In this document: positions 1 through 8,076 of the stretch, piece by piece
How positions within the stretch are numbered: position 1 is the stretch's first letter
Layout of the letters: each line of letters begins with the position of its first letter
Notes under the pieces: model-generated
Told to the model about the DNA's origin: nothing
The model's input: only the letters and a program-made list of their open reading frames with translations
The model's database searches: none
Translations under genes and position numbers: made by a program
DNA from: Bacteroidaceae bacterium
GTDB lineage: Bacteria > Bacteroidota > Bacteroidia > Bacteroidales > Bacteroidaceae
NCBI GenBank assembly: GCA_017451645.1
Contig: JAFTNZ010000015.1
Span: 1 to 60,874, forward strand
Reading direction: 5' to 3'
DNA: 60,874 nt

Positions 1-113
1 CAACACATCTGCACGAGGGCGGCTATCCAATGTTTGGGAAGCGCTTCGCGGTCGGTTGTCCCATTGACAACCGGTACGGAAATGGTCTGTGCAGCAGCGC
101 TTTTTACCTCCAT
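1..113 (-). CDS. N-terminus of probable NusG-like (UpxY-type) antiterminator, cut by window edge
   Basis: A leftward reading frame starts at the ATG on 113-111 and stays open to the window edge, giving 37 residues. It contains KHWIAALVQMC at residues 27-37, which resembles the start of the NusG N-terminal domain in Bacteroides capsule-locus antiterminators, whose members often begin near an HW..A.VQM stretch. Such proteins normally head polysaccharide operons and let RNA polymerase read through them. The position fits: a probable invertible promoter lies 21 bp upstream and glycosyltransferase genes lie beyond it. The family call rests on a short stretch and on context. The reading frame itself is more secure than the name. 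Confidence 0.45.
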   Translation of the reverse strand, partial: MEVKSAAAQTISVPVVNGTTDREALPKHWIAALVQMC

Positions 114-133
114 AATGGCTCACTTGATAGTCG

Positions 134-338
134 ATCTCCTACTAGGAGACGGACTGTTAGCCATTCATCTGATTAACAGAGGATTATCATTTCTTACAAG
201 GGGATTTTACTTAGAAAAAGGGCCAAAATGCCTCAAAAAGGACTTTTATCATTCCCGATTTTTTTAACTGAAAAGTGCTAAGAATCAGAAAAAAACTGTA
301 TCTTTGCGCCATAAACAGTCCGTCTCCTAGTAGGAGAT
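134..338. repeat. Probable invertible promoter segment bounded by 23-bp inverted repeats
   Basis: Bases 134-156 and 316-338 are perfect reverse complements (23 of 23), enclosing 159 bp. Each arm carries the near-palindrome GTCTCCTAGTAGGAGAC. The enclosed DNA has no credible gene but holds a -7 box TATCTTTG at 299-306, now pointing right, away from the leftward NusG-like gene. Flipping the segment would point it at that gene with a leader of roughly 45 nt. This matches the known layout of phase-variable capsule promoters in Bacteroides. No recombinase gene lies in the window. Inversion itself is inferred. Confidence 0.6.
299..306 (+). promoter_or_regulatory. Promoter -7 box inside the invertible segment
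   Basis: TATCTTTG matches the Bacteroidetes -7 consensus TAnnTTTG. I see no good -33 TTTG at the usual 19-21 bp spacing. In the present orientation transcription would start near 313 and run straight into the hairpin and T-tract at 316-352, so it would be aborted. Confidence 0.5.
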
Positions 339-352
339 GGACTGCTTTTTTT
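316..352 (+). terminator. Hairpin with T-tract at the right inverted repeat
   Basis: Bases 316-344 form a stem of 13 pairs (one G-T) around a 3-nt loop, and a run of eight T follows a single C. The T-tract lies outside the repeat, so it would stay in place after inversion. Only a rightward transcript would be terminated. The left arm, read leftward, has no T-tract after it. Confidence 0.55.
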
Positions 353-450
353 AGGCATCATATTCTTGCTTAATGCAATTTAAAGCATTAATAAATAATT
401 GGTTACGCACACTTTCTCAGATGCGCAAAAAGTGTTTTTTTTTAGGAAAT

Positions 451-1614
451 TTAGAGAGAGAAAAGTTCTTCCCACTTTTCCGTTGTCCTGTCGATGGAAA
501 ATGTGGTAGCATAGGCCAGAGCCTGCTCTTTCATCTTGCCCAAATCGGCCTCTTCGGCCATATAACGCAGGCACTCGGCCAAGTGGCTGATGTTGCCGTT
601 TTCAAAAAAGACGGCTACTCCCCTATCGTCCAGCAGTTCGTGGGTTACAGGCAGGTCGGATGCTATGATGGGCAGCCCATGTGACATGGCTTCCAACAAG
701 ACTAATCCGAACCCTTCCCATCGGGAACTGAGGACATAGACGCTGGATGAAGCATAGTGTTTCTGAATCTCTTTGGTGAATGGGGACAGAATGACCTTCC
801 CCTCCAAATGATGTTCTGATATGAGGCGTTGGTAGAGAGGTAATTCTGGGCCTTCGCCAACAAGCTCCAGGCTCCACCCCGTATGCCGATGGGAGAACAG
901 GGCAAATGCCTGAATAAGCAAGTCGAAACCCTTGTGCCCATGAGAAAAACGCCCTACTCCGATGAAGCGTTTGTGAGAGGAACTACCCTCCCCTTGCGGA
1001 CTGACCGTCAATGGATTGTAGATTACCGTTGTGGGCAGGCCCATCCGGGTGGCGAACAGCTGACGGTCGGAACTACTCAGAACGACAATCCTGTCGAGGT
1101 GCTTCATCTGAAAACTGAAGTGCTTCTCTAACCCCGGCAGGTATGGGGACGACTTCTTGAACAGGGCTTCGTAGGAATTGTGAATCCATGCCACACTCTT
1201 TGCACTGATGCTTGAAGATATGGAGGCCAAGTGCAGGGACAAAAATGCATGTACGGCTATGACCACATCGTATCCGCCACTGTTTATCTTCTCTGCAAGA
1301 GCCTTCCGGTAGGTGGGAAGAAAGGAGCTGCGGGCATAAAGGAAAGAGGTGGTGGGGGTGTGGGGAAGCATCTTCTTGAACATGAAGCTGTATCCTTTGC
1401 AAAGCAGGTGTTCGATGGGAGAGACTTTGCCATACCGGATGTAGTCGAACTTTACATCCGAATCGGCATACCCATACATGGACATGTCTGTGGCTGTATC
1501 CAGCGACAGGATGGTGACATCGTGCCGCATTGCCAATTTCTTTGCAATTTCGGCAAGCACCCGTTGCACTCCACCATACGAAAACACTGTGTCGCTATAG
1601 AATAACAATTTCAT
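451..1614 (-). CDS. GT4-family glycosyltransferase
   Basis: This 387-residue protein has the two-Rossmann GT-B layout of GT4 enzymes, which transfer a sugar from an NDP-sugar to a growing glycan on the cytoplasmic face. The N-terminal acceptor domain carries SYGGVQRV near residues 12-19. The donor domain carries GVGRFSHGHKGFDLLI near residue 227 and the E-x7-E motif EGFGLVLLEAM near residue 310. Length is normal for the family. It runs towards the NusG-like gene but is separated from it by the invertible segment, so it is probably a separate unit. A weak -7-like box, TAAAGTTA on the + strand, lies upstream at 1651-1658. The sugar and acceptor cannot be told from sequence. Confidence 0.9.
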   Translation of the reverse strand: MKLLFYSDTVFSYGGVQRVLAEIAKKLAMRHDVTILSLDTATDMSMYGYADSDVKFDYIRYGKVSPIEHLLCKGYSFMFKKMLPHTPTTSFLYARSSFLPTYRKALAEKINSGGYDVVIAVHAFLSLHLASISSSISAKSVAWIHNSYEALFKKSSPYLPGLEKHFSFQMKHLDRIVVLSSSDRQLFATRMGLPTTVIYNPLTVSPQGEGSSSHKRFIGVGRFSHGHKGFDLLIQAFALFSHRHTGWSLELVGEGPELPLYQRLISEHHLEGKVILSPFTKEIQKHYASSSVYVLSSRWEGFGLVLLEAMSHGLPIIASDLPVTHELLDDRGVAVFFENGNISHLAECLRYMAEEADLGKMKEQALAYATTFSIDRTTEKWEELFSL

Positions 1615-1778
1615 GAGTCGTCAAATGTCCTTTTTTTTCGTTTCAGCGCGTAAAGTTACAGCTTTCTTTCCAATGCCGCGCTATCTTTGGCCGATATTTC
1701 TCCAAAGTACGGTGTTTTTTTCTTCCCTGTCTGAGAAAAAATGTGAAGGTTATGTCCCGACAAATGAAATATAATGTG

Positions 1779-1814
1779 TACATTTGCATGGGCGAAAGTT
1801 TTTTCGTAAGTTTG
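1779..1814 (+). promoter_or_regulatory. Two candidate -7 boxes upstream of the AAA-ATPase/glycosyltransferase operon
   Basis: TACATTTG at 1779-1786 and TAAGTTTG at 1807-1814 both fit TAnnTTTG and lie 62 and 34 bp before the ATG at 1849. Either could start the operon that runs to 8076. The remainder of the 234-bp gap (1615-1848) shows nothing else. Confidence 0.5.
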
Positions 1815-1848
1815 CAAGCGATATATATAATATAAGGTATAGACAACG

Positions 1849-3438
1849 ATGAAATACCCGATAGGAATACAGAGTTTTGATCAAATCAGAGAAGACGGAT
1901 ATGTCTATGTTGATAAAACCGCACTGATTTATGCACTGATAAAGACAGGAAAGATTTATTTCCTCAGCCGTCCACGACGGTTTGGGAAAAGTCTGCTCAT
2001 TTCCACTCTTGAATGTTACTTCAAAGGACGAAAGGAACTGTTCAAAGGACTGGCTATTGATGAACTTGAACAGGAATGGAAGGAATATCCTGTATTTCAT
2101 CTGGATTTCAATGGAGACAATTTTACTGAAGGAGGAATCCTACAAAAAAAGATAGAGGGACACATTGCTGAATGGGAAAGTTTGTATGGGAAATCACCAA
2201 ACAAACAGACATTGGGAGAACGTTTTGCTTACGTATTGAAGCAGGCACACAAACAATATGGGCGGCGTGCCGTAGTGCTCATTGATGAATATGACAAACC
2301 GATGCTGGATGTACTCGATACAGGATATGCCACCATGATAGATGGCGAAAAACGTCCGTTGGAAGATGTACACCGAGAAATTCTGAAAGGTTTTTATTCC
2401 GTATTCAAGGCTGCTGACGAAGACTTGCAGTTCGTTCTATTGACAGGAGTAACCAAATTCTCACAAGTAAGTGTGTTCAGCGGTTTCAACCAACCGGCAG
2501 ACATCAGTATGGACGGCAGATATGATGCTCTTTGTGGCATTACGGAAGAAGAACTCTACCATTACTTCGATGAACCAATCAAAGAATTGGCAAAGGCATA
2601 CAATGTAAATGTGGATGAAATGAAACAATTGCTGAAAAAGCAGTACGACGGTTATCATTTCAGTGGACAACTTTTAGACATTTATAATCCTTTCAGTATC
2701 CTAAATGCGTTTTCTGCAAAGAGAATTGCAAGTTTTTGGTTTAAAACGGGTTCACCAAGCTATTTGCTCCGATTGCTTGCCCACCATCAAGAGAATATCA
2801 ATGAATTGGCTGGAAAATTCTATCCTGAACAAATGTTTGTGGATTACAAAGCGAACATAGAGCTGCCCCTTCCCATGTTGTACCAAAGTGGTTATCTGAC
2901 CATTAAAGGGTGCAACTTGCGTCGGAATACTTTTTTGTTGGATTTCCCAAACAACGAAGTGCAAGAGGGATTTATAACTGCACTCAGTAGCAGTTATTTC
3001 AAGTCGGCTGTCGAAGTCAACAATTGGACGCAAAACGTTGTTGATGCCTTAGAGTATGGTGATTTGGAGGGGTTCCGTAAATTGCTCACTTCATTCTTGG
3101 CAGACATACCCTACTCCATGCGACGCAAAGAAACGGAAAGGGAACGTGAGCGTTATTTTCATTACACCTTCTACCTGCTGATGCGCATGGTCAGTTGCTA
3201 CACGATATATACTGAAAAACAGCAAAGCGAAGGTCGTGTGGATTGCATCGTTGAGACTCCTGATTACGTTTATATTTTTGAATTCAAACTGGATGGAACA
3301 GCAGAAGAAGCCTTGCAACAAATTGAAGACAAAGGATATGCAGAACCATATTTGTCTGACAAGCGGAAACTCTATAAGGTGGGAGTGAACTTCTCATCGG
3401 AGAGTGGAACGGTAGATGGGTGGGAAATGAAGGAATGA
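1849..3438 (+). CDS. AAA-ATPase-like protein with C-terminal PD-(D/E)XK nuclease-like domain (DUF1703 type)
   Basis: This 529-residue protein begins MKYPIGIQSFDQIREDGYVYVDKT, the standard opening of the AAA-ATPase-like/DUF1703 family. It has a Walker A (SRPRRFGKSLL, about residues 39-49), a Walker B (VVLIDEYDKP, about 141-150) and a C-terminal nuclease-fold signature with D in GRVDCIV and EFK in YIFEFKLDG (about 468-492). Biochemical function of the family is not established; copies are very numerous in Bacteroidales and Clostridia and may be selfish or regulatory. The gene ends 3 bp before the next ATG, so it looks operon-linked to four glycosyltransferases, an unusual partner. All core motifs look intact. 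Confidence 0.88.
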   Translation: MKYPIGIQSFDQIREDGYVYVDKTALIYALIKTGKIYFLSRPRRFGKSLLISTLECYFKGRKELFKGLAIDELEQEWKEYPVFHLDFNGDNFTEGGILQKKIEGHIAEWESLYGKSPNKQTLGERFAYVLKQAHKQYGRRAVVLIDEYDKPMLDVLDTGYATMIDGEKRPLEDVHREILKGFYSVFKAADEDLQFVLLTGVTKFSQVSVFSGFNQPADISMDGRYDALCGITEEELYHYFDEPIKELAKAYNVNVDEMKQLLKKQYDGYHFSGQLLDIYNPFSILNAFSAKRIASFWFKTGSPSYLLRLLAHHQENINELAGKFYPEQMFVDYKANIELPLPMLYQSGYLTIKGCNLRRNTFLLDFPNNEVQEGFITALSSSYFKSAVEVNNWTQNVVDALEYGDLEGFRKLLTSFLADIPYSMRRKETERERERYFHYTFYLLMRMVSCYTIYTEKQQSEGRVDCIVETPDYVYIFEFKLDGTAEEALQQIEDKGYAEPYLSDKRKLYKVGVNFSSESGTVDGWEMKE

Positions 3439-3441
3439 GTT

Positions 3442-4584
3442 ATGAAGATAGTGTATCTATATACGGCTTTGGTGACCGTGGGAGGCGCTGATAGAGTTGT
3501 TACGGAAAAAGCAAACTATTTGGCTGAAGTGTTGGGGCATGATGTTTATATTATCACTGATTCGCAAAACGGTCGCCAACCTGTATTCCCACTATCCACA
3601 AAAGTCAAGCACATTGATTTAGACATAAACTTCGACAAGCAATATCATCATGGGTTACTGGTGAGGGCATACTACTACTTCAGCCTGATGTACCTCTATA
3701 AGAAACGGTTGGGCAAATTGTTGAATGAAATAAAAGCGGATGTTGTAATCACGACCTTGGGACGCGATTTGGACTTTCTGACAACGTTGGAAGATGGAAG
3801 CAAGAAAGTAGGAGAATCACACATCGCCAAACAATACACCCGCAATTTCCATTTGATGGAATCACGGGGATTTCCCTACAGACAAATAGCCAAATATTGG
3901 AGAAGAAAGCAAGAAAAGGCAGTCAGGAGATTGGATGCATTTGTCGTGTTGACACAATACGATGCGGAAAGTTGGAGCAAAATTAAAGCAGCCGAGATAA
4001 TCCCCAATTCTCTCCCTTTCTACACTGAAGAATCAAGTACGTTGGATAAGAAACAAATTATTACGGTAGGGAGACTGAGCGAACAAAAAGGATTTGATCT
4101 GTTGATTTCGGCTTGGTCATGCATTGCCCGACAACACTCGGACTGGAAGATTCATCTGTATGGAGAAGGTGAATTGGAAAATGAATTGAGAAAGTCAGTC
4201 GCCCAAAATGGAATGGAAGACAGTTTTCTTATTCATAAGCCTGTGAAGGATATTAAAGAGAAATATCTTGAAAGTTCCATCTACGTGATGAGTTCGCGTT
4301 TCGAAGGTTTCGGAATGGTGCTGATTGAGGCTATGGCTTGTGGAGTGCCTTGTGTCTCATTTGATTGTCCGCATGGGCCTTCATACATAGTGAAGGATGG
4401 TGAAGATGGGATATTGGTAGAAAATGGAAATGTTGAAAAATTGGCGGATGCCATTTCTTCGTTGATTGTGGATAAAGAGAGGCGCATGGCAATGGGAAAA
4501 GCGGCTAAAAGAAACATTGCAAGATATAGCCAAAAGGACATCATGCGGCAATGGGAGAACCTTTTTTATAAGTTGACATCATGA
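3442..4584 (+). CDS. GT4-family glycosyltransferase
   Basis: This 380-residue enzyme has TVGGADRVVTEKANYLAE at residues 12-29, GRLSEQKGFDLLISAW near 211 and SSRFEGFGMVLIEAMACG near 285, all typical of GT4. It starts 3 bp after the ATPase stop codon and overlaps the next gene by 4 bp (ATGA). It is clearly paralogous to the product of 5726-6871: both share the AGG/VGG..RV..KANY.A.VLG opening, the DGSKKVGE.HI motif and the SFDCP.GP donor-site loop. The two may have arisen by local duplication with a third enzyme in between. Donor and acceptor are unknown. Confidence 0.9.
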   Translation: MKIVYLYTALVTVGGADRVVTEKANYLAEVLGHDVYIITDSQNGRQPVFPLSTKVKHIDLDINFDKQYHHGLLVRAYYYFSLMYLYKKRLGKLLNEIKADVVITTLGRDLDFLTTLEDGSKKVGESHIAKQYTRNFHLMESRGFPYRQIAKYWRRKQEKAVRRLDAFVVLTQYDAESWSKIKAAEIIPNSLPFYTEESSTLDKKQIITVGRLSEQKGFDLLISAWSCIARQHSDWKIHLYGEGELENELRKSVAQNGMEDSFLIHKPVKDIKEKYLESSIYVMSSRFEGFGMVLIEAMACGVPCVSFDCPHGPSYIVKDGEDGILVENGNVEKLADAISSLIVDKERRMAMGKAAKRNIARYSQKDIMRQWENLFYKLTS

Positions 4585-5729
4585 AAATACTTTTCCTCAT
4601 ATATCACGGTTTCTCAGAACATAGCGGCATCAGCAAGAAGATTCACTATCAGATCGAGGGGCTTCGGGAGAATGGCCACGAAGTACACGTATGCACCTAC
4701 TATATCCGTGAAGACGGACATCGGGTAAGGATGGTGGATGATGACATCGTGATTCAAGATTTCGGTTGTGGCCGATGGGCTGCCATCAAGCAACGTTTTT
4801 CGTTCAAGGCGCTGACTGATTATGTGATAGAGAATGGATTTGAATTTGTCTATGCCCGTTCTTTCCACAATGCCAACCCGGCAACGGTAAAGATGTTCAA
4901 ACGATTCAAGGAACAGGGCATTCCTTCGGTAATAGAAATTCCCACTTACCCCTACGACCAAGAATATGCAGGCACAACTTCGTGGGAGAACAGGCTGAAG
5001 CTGATGCTGGACAAACTCTATCGCAAGAAACTGGCGGCCCAGACGGATGCCATCGTCACTTTCACGAATGATAAAGAGATATTCGGCCAACGAACCGTCT
5101 GTATCTCCAATGGCATCGACTATGACCACATACCCATGCAAAAGCCCCTCCCCCATCCGGAAAATGAAATACACCTGATAGGTGTGGCCGAAGTGCACTA
5201 TTGGCACGGATATGACCGGCTGATAGCGGGATTGGGTGAGTACTACAAACAAAAACGCGGAACGGATGTTTATTTCCATATTGTGGGGGGAGTGGCTGAT
5301 TCGGAGATGTATGACTCTGTGCATGCGCAGGGCTTTCATGGGCTGATAGAGAAATACGGGATAGAGAAGCAGGTGATTTTTCATGGCCCCAAGTTTGGAG
5401 AAGAGCTGGACAAACTGTTCAACCGGGCGGATTTCGCTATAGGGAGTCTTGCCCGACACCGAAGTGGGATAACTCACATAAAAACGCTGAAGAACCGCGA
5501 ATATGCGGCACGGGGCATTCCTTTCGTCTATTCGGAAACAGACGAGGACTTTGAACAGATGCCATATATCATCAAAGCACCTGCAGATGAATCGCCTGTG
5601 GATGTGGGGGAAATCGTCAGGTTCGTGACGGGACGGAGAATACCGGCAGGCGACATCAGAGCCTCTATCGGACACCTGACTTGGAGTGAACAGATGAAAA
5701 AAGTAGTTGAAAATATACGAAGACGATGA
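4581..5729 (+). CDS. Glycosyltransferase, GT-B/GT4-like
   Basis: This 382-residue protein opens MKILFLIYHGFSEHSGISKK, the usual first strand and glycine-containing loop of a GT4 acceptor domain, and has a central ISNGIDYDHIP stretch near residue 175 before the donor domain. The donor domain is divergent: GVAEVHYWHGYDRLIAGL replaces the normal GR...KG..LI pattern, and the E-x7-E region is replaced by SLARHRSGITHIKTLKNREY. It overlaps both neighbours by 4 bp, so translation is probably coupled. It belongs to the same glycan pathway by position; the divergent donor site suggests a different donor or geometry. Confidence 0.82.
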   Translation: MKILFLIYHGFSEHSGISKKIHYQIEGLRENGHEVHVCTYYIREDGHRVRMVDDDIVIQDFGCGRWAAIKQRFSFKALTDYVIENGFEFVYARSFHNANPATVKMFKRFKEQGIPSVIEIPTYPYDQEYAGTTSWENRLKLMLDKLYRKKLAAQTDAIVTFTNDKEIFGQRTVCISNGIDYDHIPMQKPLPHPENEIHLIGVAEVHYWHGYDRLIAGLGEYYKQKRGTDVYFHIVGGVADSEMYDSVHAQGFHGLIEKYGIEKQVIFHGPKFGEELDKLFNRADFAIGSLARHRSGITHIKTLKNREYAARGIPFVYSETDEDFEQMPYIIKAPADESPVDVGEIVRFVTGRRIPAGDIRASIGHLTWSEQMKKVVENIRRR

Positions 5730-6871
5730 GCAGACGAATTGCCTATTGTACCCCGTCGCTCTACATCGCCGGAGGCGTGGAGCGGGTGTTGGTAACCAAA
5801 GCCAACTATTTTGCCGACGTACTCGGATATGAAATATACATCATCCTGACGGATGGCAAGGGAAAAGCGCCTTATTATCCTTTGTCGCCGAAAGTGAAGG
5901 TCATACACCTGGACATCAACTTCGAGGAGCTTTGGCACTTGTCGTTTTTAAGAAAAATACCTGTCTATCTGAAAAAACAACGGGTGTTCAAGCGGAAACT
6001 GACCGAGGTCCTGATGGAGATAAAGCCCGACATCACCGTTTCGTTATTAAGACGAGAAATCAATTTCATCACTTCCATCAAAGATGGTAGCAAGAAGGTG
6101 GGGGAAATCCATATCAACAGAGACAACTACCGGAACTTTACGGACAAGGAGGACAACCTCTTCAAACGCATTTTTGCCTATTTCTGGGACAAACAGTTGT
6201 TGGGAAAGTTGAAGCACCTGGATGCTTTTGTCTGCCTGACGGAAGACGACAAGGCCAAATGGATGGAGCTGGATAACGTAAGAGTAATCCCCAACCCTCT
6301 CCCCTTCTATCCCGAAAAATGCAGCGACGGTAGAGAAAAAAGGGTGATTTCCGTCGGGCGGTATGCATACGAAAAGGGGTTTGACAGATTGGCCCGGATA
6401 TGGGCATTGGTAGCAAAAGATTTTCCTGACTGGAGCCTGCATGTATATGGTAGTGGGGATGCAGAAGAACTGAAGGAAGATGTCAATCGTCTGCAGATAG
6501 CTGACTCATTTTTCATTCACGGTCCCACATCTGATATCGCAAATGTCTATTGCTCAAGCTCTTTATATCTGCTCACTTCCCGCTTCGAGGGATTCGGTAT
6601 GGTGTTGGCCGAGGCTATGGCTTGTGGTCTTCCGGTCGTGTCGTTTGATTGCCCCTATGGCCCGAGAAACATCATCACGCATGGAGAAGACGGTTTTCTG
6701 ATACAGGATGGTGATATAGAAGCATATGCCTCGCAAGTGGCACGATTGTTGGAGTGCAGTGGACAGAGATTGACGATGGGAAGCAAAGCGCGGAGCAACA
6801 TCGGGCGGCTGAAGATTGAATACATATCTCGCCGTTGGGAAGAGCTGTTTGATGAGATTTTGTCTGAATAA
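5726..6871 (+). CDS. GT4-family glycosyltransferase, paralogue of the 3442-4584 product
   Basis: This 381-residue enzyme has AGGVERVLVTKANYFADVLG near residues 15-34, GRYAYEKGFDRLARIWAL near 213 and TSRFEGFGMVLAEAMACG near 285, giving an intact E-x7-E donor site. Its similarity to the enzyme encoded at 3442-4584 runs from end to end by eye. It begins within the stop codon of the preceding gene (ATGA overlap) and ends 17 bp before the next start. It probably adds one sugar in the glycan made by this operon; specificity is not predictable. Confidence 0.9.
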   Translation: MSRRIAYCTPSLYIAGGVERVLVTKANYFADVLGYEIYIILTDGKGKAPYYPLSPKVKVIHLDINFEELWHLSFLRKIPVYLKKQRVFKRKLTEVLMEIKPDITVSLLRREINFITSIKDGSKKVGEIHINRDNYRNFTDKEDNLFKRIFAYFWDKQLLGKLKHLDAFVCLTEDDKAKWMELDNVRVIPNPLPFYPEKCSDGREKRVISVGRYAYEKGFDRLARIWALVAKDFPDWSLHVYGSGDAEELKEDVNRLQIADSFFIHGPTSDIANVYCSSSLYLLTSRFEGFGMVLAEAMACGLPVVSFDCPYGPRNIITHGEDGFLIQDGDIEAYASQVARLLECSGQRLTMGSKARSNIGRLKIEYISRRWEELFDEILSE

Positions 6872-6888
6872 ACAATATATGATGGTAT

Positions 6889-8076
6889 ATGCCCTACAAG
6901 ATACTGTATATAGCTAATGTACGTCACAGGATAACGGAAGATGTGAACCGTGGGATGCTGTTGAAACTGAACTGGCTGGTGGGACACACCGATTACGAAT
7001 GCTATTGGGCAATGACCGGCAAACAGGAGAAGCAAATGGCTCAAAGCGAGTTGCTCAGGCCTGAAGTGAGCATCGTCCGGCTCGATGTGGAGGAGTATCC
7101 CACCATCGGACAGGCAAGTCGGGTAGAAAAACTGGTGCGTTCGTGGAAATGGCGTAGAGAATACAAGTCCGGCTTGGCGAAAGTGTATAGAAAATATGCC
7201 CCCGATATTGTAGTGACGACATTGAAACATAAGAATGACATTCTTTATGCAACAATCGGAAAAGGTATCAATGTCGTGGAGATGCTGACTGATGAAGACC
7301 AGCTTTTTCTTGCTGAGGAGAACATTGGGACATTCTCCAACCGCCTGATGGCTTATCTGTGGAGAGTCTATCGGATGTCTTCGATTTACAGGCGTTTGAA
7401 AAAGATACAGGTGATAGTTGTGCCATCCGACGGATTGGTCAATAAGTGGAAAGGAAATTTGTCTTGTGTCCTCCATATACCTACACCCTTGTCAGACATT
7501 CCGGATTCTATATCCGATGGCGAAGCAAAGCAAGTGATGGCGGTAGGAACGTTTGATGACGAACGCAACTTTGAGCAATTGCTCTGGGGATGGCGGCGTC
7601 TGGTGGCCGTTTATCCCGAATGGAAGCTCCGTGTCTATGGTAGTGGCGACCCCTCCTCTTTTGTGGAATTACTGAAAAAGCTGAAAATGAGCAGGTGTGT
7701 CAAATATTCTCCAATTCCTGCAAATTTGGATATGGCTTATCGTCAGGCTTCAATTTATGTGCAAGATGTCAGATTTGACCCTCAAGGATATGGCCTGATG
7801 GAGGCTATGTCATACGGTTTGCCATGCATTGCTTCTGATGCTCCTTATGCGCCCAGAGATATCATTTCCGATGGGGTGAATGGTTTTTTGTCGCCTGAAG
7901 GGCATAGCATGGATTTTTCTATCAAATTGGGTCTGATAATGCGCAAAGCATCGTTGCGGAAGAAGATGGGAGAGGAAGCTCACAGTACTTCCAAAGAGTA
8001 TCATTTGGACAAAATCATGCCTCGATGGAAACAGCTTTTTGATGATGTGATATTGTCTATGAAAAAAAAGAAATGA
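6889..8076 (+). CDS. GT4-like glycosyltransferase with altered donor motif
   Basis: This 395-residue protein has the GT-B layout, with VGTFDDERNFEQLLWGW near residue 220 and RFDPQGYGLMEAMSYGLP near 300. In the other two intact enzymes the E-x7-E motif reads EGFGMVLxE; here the aligned stretch is DPQGYGLME, so the first acidic residue is Asp rather than Glu. The following SDAPYAPRDIISDGVNGFL loop resembles its neighbours. It is the last gene of the operon, followed by a terminator at 8241-8273. It may have shifted donor use or weaker activity. Confidence 0.85.
   Translation: MPYKILYIANVRHRITEDVNRGMLLKLNWLVGHTDYECYWAMTGKQEKQMAQSELLRPEVSIVRLDVEEYPTIGQASRVEKLVRSWKWRREYKSGLAKVYRKYAPDIVVTTLKHKNDILYATIGKGINVVEMLTDEDQLFLAEENIGTFSNRLMAYLWRVYRMSSIYRRLKKIQVIVVPSDGLVNKWKGNLSCVLHIPTPLSDIPDSISDGEAKQVMAVGTFDDERNFEQLLWGWRRLVAVYPEWKLRVYGSGDPSSFVELLKKLKMSRCVKYSPIPANLDMAYRQASIYVQDVRFDPQGYGLMEAMSYGLPCIASDAPYAPRDIISDGVNGFLSPEGHSMDFSIKLGLIMRKASLRKKMGEEAHSTSKEYHLDKIMPRWKQLFDDVILSMKKKK

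Follow-up and report, generated by a model that had tools for sequence, protein, structure and literature searches.

The window, a stretch of 60,874 nucleotides, is the whole of contig C5 (JAFTNZ010000015.1) of a Bacteroidaceae assembly (GCA_017451645.1; 2.5 Mb in 38 contigs, 72.6% complete). Its left end contains the start of a leftwards-transcribed gene (ATG at 113–111), of which only 37 codons are present because the contig begins at base 1. To the right lie a short leader, a pair of inverted repeats enclosing a promoter box, and a leftwards-transcribed glycosyltransferase gene (Table 1). These are followed by an AAA-ATPase-like/PD-(D/E)XK gene (1849–3438) and four group-1 glycosyltransferase-family genes (3442–8076), all rightwards transcribed.

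The 37-residue fragment gives no family match on its own; it aligns with the start of P0002, a protein of a genus relative, at 63% identity across 35 residues, and P0002 reaches 134.2 bits against the UpxY model (cut-off 100). The probable antiterminator gene proposed to the left of the element in an earlier reading of the sequence without database searches (the sequence-only reading) thus has an UpxY-like start. Complete UpxY proteins are encoded at the corresponding elements of two relatives, G005 and G002.

The 23-bp perfect inverted repeats of that reading (134–156 and 316–338) are exact reverse complements, and the arms extend to 30 nt with one mismatch (97% complementary). The pair scores 27, whereas no more than 14 was reached when window positions 1–700 were dinucleotide-shuffled 1000 times. 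Each arm is a palindrome of TCTCCTA and TAGGAGA around one central base, C in the left arm and G in the right. The box was correctly taken to face right, away from upxY, and follows the −7 consensus TAnnTTTG (PMC7366714). The same form is present in two further copies of the element (C12 and C16, see below) and in G005. A sigma-70-type promoter scan left the window promoter unmarked, as expected of a Bacteroides-type box.

Table 1. Features at the left end of the window (coordinates are those of the window).
Feature	Coordinates	Strand	Basis
UpxY-like transcription antiterminator gene, 5′ end, 37 codons, cut by contig start	1..113	-	homology to P0002
15-nt leader, proximal repeat to upxY start codon, without T-tract in read direction	114..128	-	sequence; identical in C5, C12 and C16
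Proximal inverted repeat, palindromic, core 135–149; proposed recombination site	129..158	.	repeat and core scans
155-bp inter-repeat segment, at present in OFF orientation	159..313	.	reversed relative to upxY flank in copy C16
−7 box TATCTTTG (TAnnTTTG), pointing right, away from upxY	299..306	+	sequence; consensus PMC7366714
Distal inverted repeat, palindromic, core 323–337; proposed recombination site	314..343	.	repeat and core scans
Predicted intrinsic terminator from distal repeat: 13-pair stem 316–344, C, T7 (346–352)	316..352	+	terminator scan, fold
GT4-type glycosyltransferase gene, convergent with element	451..1614	-	Pfam Glycos_transf_1 and Glyco_transf_4

Three copies of the element in one assembly

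The repeat core TCTCCTASTAGGAGA (one mismatch allowed) is found at six sites in the assembly, all of them exact and forming three pairs, and the same search with the core written backward gives none. One pair is that of the window, at the start of C5, and the others are at the ends of contigs C12 and C16. The exact core is present in one of 399 family genomes, namely its own; a scan of viral contigs gave 12 stretches with a single match each and no pairs, which we take as chance matches. Relative to the same gene start, the box points away in C5 and C12 (OFF) and toward upxY in C16 (ON). When turned alike the inter-core segments have pairwise identities of 96.5, 91.3 and 89.0%. The gene-side DNA (upxY start, leader and part of the repeat) is identical over 141 bp between C5 and C16 and over 119 bp with C12; the 100-base distal flanks are just 48–52% identical in a forced global alignment.

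Related inverted-repeat pairs thus occur twice more in the genome with both orientations represented, these being seen between paralogous loci of one assembly. The three copies in two orientations strongly support the proposal that the element is a phase-variable (invertible) promoter now in its OFF state, and by its sequence it very probably belongs to the invertible UpxY promoters, a kind already known. Three copies with terminal inverted repeats could also be those of a small transposable element (MITE). We regard this as extremely unlikely and have set it aside: the upxY flank outside one repeat is common to all copies and always on the same side, a promoter box lies inside, and the arrangement recurs in G005 and G002 with repeats of different sequence.

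The upxY gene is cut off by the contig end in each copy, before the upxZ gene and capsule operon that would be expected to follow it in a Bacteroidales invertible UpxY locus, and no continuation of the gene was found in the 38-contig assembly. The shared lengths of 141 and 119 bp resemble what we take to be assembler word lengths (MEGAHIT defaults), so that upxY is probably a collapsed repeat.

A tyrosine recombinase gene beside one copy

The sequence-only reading had suggested looking for the palindrome near recombinase genes, and the C16 pair does adjoin one. Its product P0001 (321 aa) is a tyrosine recombinase by its Phage_int_SAM_5 and Phage_integrase domains; the window copy has no such gene beside it. 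Its catalytic residues, which we assign as R169, K195, Y266, R269, H292 and Y301, are invariant in nine aligned proteins (P0001 included) with the exception of R169, for which the protein at locus L040 has C.

Repeat pairs with a box near the arm accompany 11 of the 18 loci with strong P0001 homologues (E 3e-55 or better, own locus included) versus none of the 12 with weak homologues; the remaining seven strong-homologue loci are without such a pair, and six further matches with E < 1e-50 lie outside the 18 loci. The neighbouring gene scores above the UpxY cut-off at four loci (L023, L024, L031 and L040), has SNF2-related and TerD domains at two (L025 and L038), and a DUF3575 domain at L027. 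The half-sites at these loci, in our reading of the sequences, appear to share a TCTCyT-like form.

Several of these loci have features of their own. At L025 (genome G014) and L038 (G005) the P0001-like recombinases and repeat pairs with a box lie beside SNF2/ResIII helicase-like and TerD-domain genes, and these are possibly phase-variable defence or stress genes. At L027 (1246–1467; G005) there are two copies of the right-hand site, separated by 20 bp, beside the tyrosine recombinase and DUF3575 genes, which recalls the duplicated repeats of a B. fragilis strain (PMC3090145). In L023 (G007) the DNA separating the recombinase gene from the promoter element contains a second perfect 23-bp inverted pair (1287–1310 and 1460–1483), which encloses no box. 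Identical arms are found in the invertible UpxY elements of L031 (2450–2668; G008) and L095 (1062–1281; G121), in genomes assigned to two genera, suggesting recent transfer or contamination.

The next match to P0001 in its own assembly has an E value of only 3.5e-8 (27% identity), so that one enzyme probably serves all three loci, although at 72.6% completeness a further invertase could be missing, outside the known contigs. The assembly also encodes one serine recombinase (Resolvase domain, contig C34). The sole repeat pair within 1.5 kb of its gene scores 11 and contains no box, and the arms of the window element are palindromic, as is expected at tyrosine-recombinase sites. That this protein makes the flip, in the manner of the serine-family master invertase Mpi that serves the B. 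fragilis sites, is very unlikely: the arms also do not contain ARACGTTCGTN, the motif given for Mpi sites (PMC8375218).

A predicted terminator on the distal side

As proposed in the sequence-only reading, a T-tract lies outside the right repeat, directly after the stem and a single C, and none follows the left repeat in the direction of a left-facing transcript. The distal repeat therefore has the form of an intrinsic terminator, a GC-containing stem followed by a T-tract, and is predicted to act as one. Window positions 310–352 fold at −22.4 kcal/mol (z −7.3), and the distal hairpins of C12 and C16 at −26.8 and −20.4 kcal/mol. The proximal hairpin (C16 as it stands; in C5 the form predicted after inversion) has an internal mismatch, no T-tract and a stem of −13.1 kcal/mol, this value being the centroid for C16, where the whole 61-nt stretch reaches −15.7 kcal/mol.

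We scored repeats as terminators by one fixed and rather loose rule (stem of at least five pairs, three G-C pairs, five T in eight). Among the five closest elements (C5, C12, C16, G005 and G002; three species) the rule is satisfied by the distal repeat in 5/5 and by the proximal repeat in 0/5; in the folds given above, stem stability is likewise greater on the distal side. The distal flanks of C5, C12 and C16 have little sequence in common, yet each is T-rich right after the stem. In G005 and G002 the repeat sequence is not that of the window, so that the arrangement has persisted through changes of the site. The claim that a right-facing transcript ends after about 40 nt consequently stands in part: hairpin and T-tract are predicted here and kept in C12, C16 and two other species, and termination itself is a prediction. 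We lean towards this terminator step of the OFF state. It may also shield the glycosyltransferase gene at 451–1614 from antisense reading.

In all three copies of this assembly the nearest distal gene is convergent with the element, and the hairpin could instead be the terminator of that gene (in the window, the glycosyltransferase gene). The T-tract, however, is on the strand leaving the element and not on that of the distal genes, where the C5 hairpin has an A-tract before it, TTTATGG after it, and no T-tract. This reading, very unlikely for that reason, was set aside.

A stronger competitor is that the element is an ordinary invertible UpxY promoter whose arms are recombination sites only, the T-tract being AT-rich flank or part of a longer site for the recombinase or an accessory protein, and non-terminating. 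A terminator scan of window positions 1–2000 overall found two, with 2.1 expected, which is not significant. When the distal flanks are shuffled the rule is still satisfied in 148 (C5), 76 (C12), 6 (C16), 106 (G005) and 500 (G002) of 500 cases, so that a palindrome like this one will quite often have a T-rich tail by chance alone. Part of the T-rich stretch of G002 is inside the arm, the C12 tail is only TTATTTT, and C16 is scored as the inner seven pairs with five T because a mismatch splits its stem. The inner flanks of the arms carry ACTGTT as well, and part of the T run may therefore belong to a longer palindrome.

With five more distant elements of the genus added (G003, G007, G008, G011 and G013), the counts become 6/10 distal and 1/10 proximal. 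Among these five, G008 alone has a distal terminator, and neither repeat scores as a terminator in G003, G007 or G011; in G007 a separate hairpin is visible by eye a few bases further out. In G013 (L033 2540–2600) it is the T-rich stretch after the likely gene-side repeat that scores as a terminator, the reverse of the window, an assignment of sides that rests on a 65-residue frame cut by the contig end and lacking a family match. This gene-side hairpin might be an attenuator in the leader.

A control set was drawn from one genus (g3), since just three of 30 loci from a family-wide search with the UpxY model had a repeat pair with any box inside; partly from its Mpi-type sites, this genus is probably Bacteroides. 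From 109 UpxY upstream regions among the matches listed in 60 genomes (29 search loci and 80 fetched), 37 with no pair having a box near the arm were dropped and 72 counted. Distal terminators are found in 6/72 and proximal ones in 1/72 (4/48 and 1/48 for distinct arms), the distal ones dividing into 5/40 for GTTAC-type and 1/32 for Mpi-type elements. A distal terminator is thus not a general part of such switches, 66 of the 72 managing without one. Comparison of the five closest elements (5/5) with the distinct control arms (4/48) gives a Fisher p of 4e-5, a value that is overstated because the five are related. By orientation the control elements are 57 OFF, 14 ON and one both, a ratio that may be skewed, since the state was assigned from a box lying no more than 45 nt from an arm.

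A scan of genome contigs with P0002 gave four relatives: L052 (100% identity), L053 (water buffalo cecum), L054 (Porphyromonadaceae) and L055. L054 has an OFF-facing pair without a T-tract after the distal repeat (by eye, and outside the counts above). In the window, ACACTTT and AAAGTGT followed by a T run (409–443, by eye) form a second possible right-facing terminator between the element and the glycosyltransferase gene, with a loop of ~13 that is beyond the limits of the terminator scan.

The chance frequency of T-rich flanks and the absence of a distal terminator from 4/10 genus elements and most control elements make arms that are recombination sites and nothing else a serious possibility, short of probable. 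Against it stand the one-sidedness of the terminator in the closest set, that of stem stability, and the T-rich sequence straight after the stem in three flanks that otherwise share so little.

Relation to known invertible promoters

The Mpi-controlled capsule promoters of B. fragilis and those of B. intestinalis are described as short and invertible, lying between inverted repeats at several loci per genome, with operons that often begin with upxY; in B. intestinalis the approximate transcript start is within the proximal repeat (PMC8375218, PMC12632263). The window element resembles these in its invertible promoter between repeats, with a TAnnTTTG box just before upxY (37 codons in the window), its likely upxY-led operon and its multiple loci. 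The earlier statement that known Bacteroides capsule promoters have the same layout therefore holds for repeats, box and UpxY; it does not extend to an OFF-side terminator in the repeat, which only 6/72 have. No description of such a terminator for a Bacteroides invertible promoter was found in the accessible parts of the open-access literature.

Other properties set the window element apart. The repeat motif is TCTCCTASTAGGAGA, in place of the ARACGTTCGTN / GTTCGTTTAA described for the Mpi and B. intestinalis systems, and the recombinase class probably differs from that of the Mpi system, a tyrosine recombinase with catalytic residues being encoded beside copy C16. In the 32 control elements with arms that we label CGTTCG-like the repeat is 212–437 nt before the UpxY model match, whereas that of the window is 15 nt before the ATG, and 1/32 has an OFF-side terminator. 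The 40 control promoters that we label GTTAC-type are closer, with palindromic arms near the gene (90–103 nt before the UpxY model match), UpxY and a TAnnTTTG box; they have a different arm sequence, and each of the five with a distal terminator has just five or six T in eight. By its sequence, then, the window element is not Mpi-type, and its layout is that of a UpxY-type invertible promoter.

Tsr19 of B. fragilis, a tyrosine recombinase driving an invertible promoter for a large capsule (PMC3090145), offers a likeness, by description alone, in combining such an enzyme with an invertible surface-polysaccharide promoter. A dependence of termination on orientation is described for CwpV of Clostridioides difficile, where a predicted intrinsic terminator at a repeat stops the transcript in only one of the two orientations (PMC2784873). 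In that system the start site lies upstream of the repeats whichever way the segment is turned, and it is the gene itself that the terminator blocks; in the window it is the promoter that would flip, and the outward transcript that would be blocked.

Proposed mechanism and implications

Taken as a whole, window positions 129–343 are likely, on the sequence evidence, to be an invertible promoter switch of a UpxY-led operon, whose product is most likely a capsule or another surface glycan. The 155-bp segment would be flipped by a tyrosine recombinase acting on the two palindromic repeats, P0001 being the most likely candidate. In the ON state the box would point toward upxY and the mRNA would start within the proximal repeat or immediately ahead of it; the hairpin of this repeat is weaker and has no T-tract, and would let transcription continue into the gene. 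In the present OFF state the transcript would copy the distal 13-pair hairpin and T7 and stop at ~40 nt. UpxY-like proteins are reported to keep transcription of their own operon from ending prematurely in its untranslated region (PMC7315117). In the window this region would comprise only the repeat and 15 nt, so that UpxY would have to act further downstream or on the hairpin.

In its full form we give this reading a probability of about 0.4. One palindrome would serve as recombination site, as OFF-state terminator on the distal side only, and, in its mismatch-weakened proximal form, as the 5′ leader hairpin of the ON mRNA; and P0001 alone would serve as master tyrosine invertase for three or more upxY promoters located on different contigs, a tyrosine counterpart of the serine invertase Mpi of B. 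fragilis.

To the phase-variable UpxY loci already known, the element contributes a repeat sequence that is new and, in P0001, a tyrosine invertase likely to serve several loci, the host belonging to a Bacteroidaceae genus. If the OFF-side repeat does terminate, the wrong-way transcript is silenced by the very switch that produces it, and this would be part of the reason why a genome can carry numerous invertible promoters with no damage to adjacent genes; inverton maps could be examined for such an OFF-side terminator.
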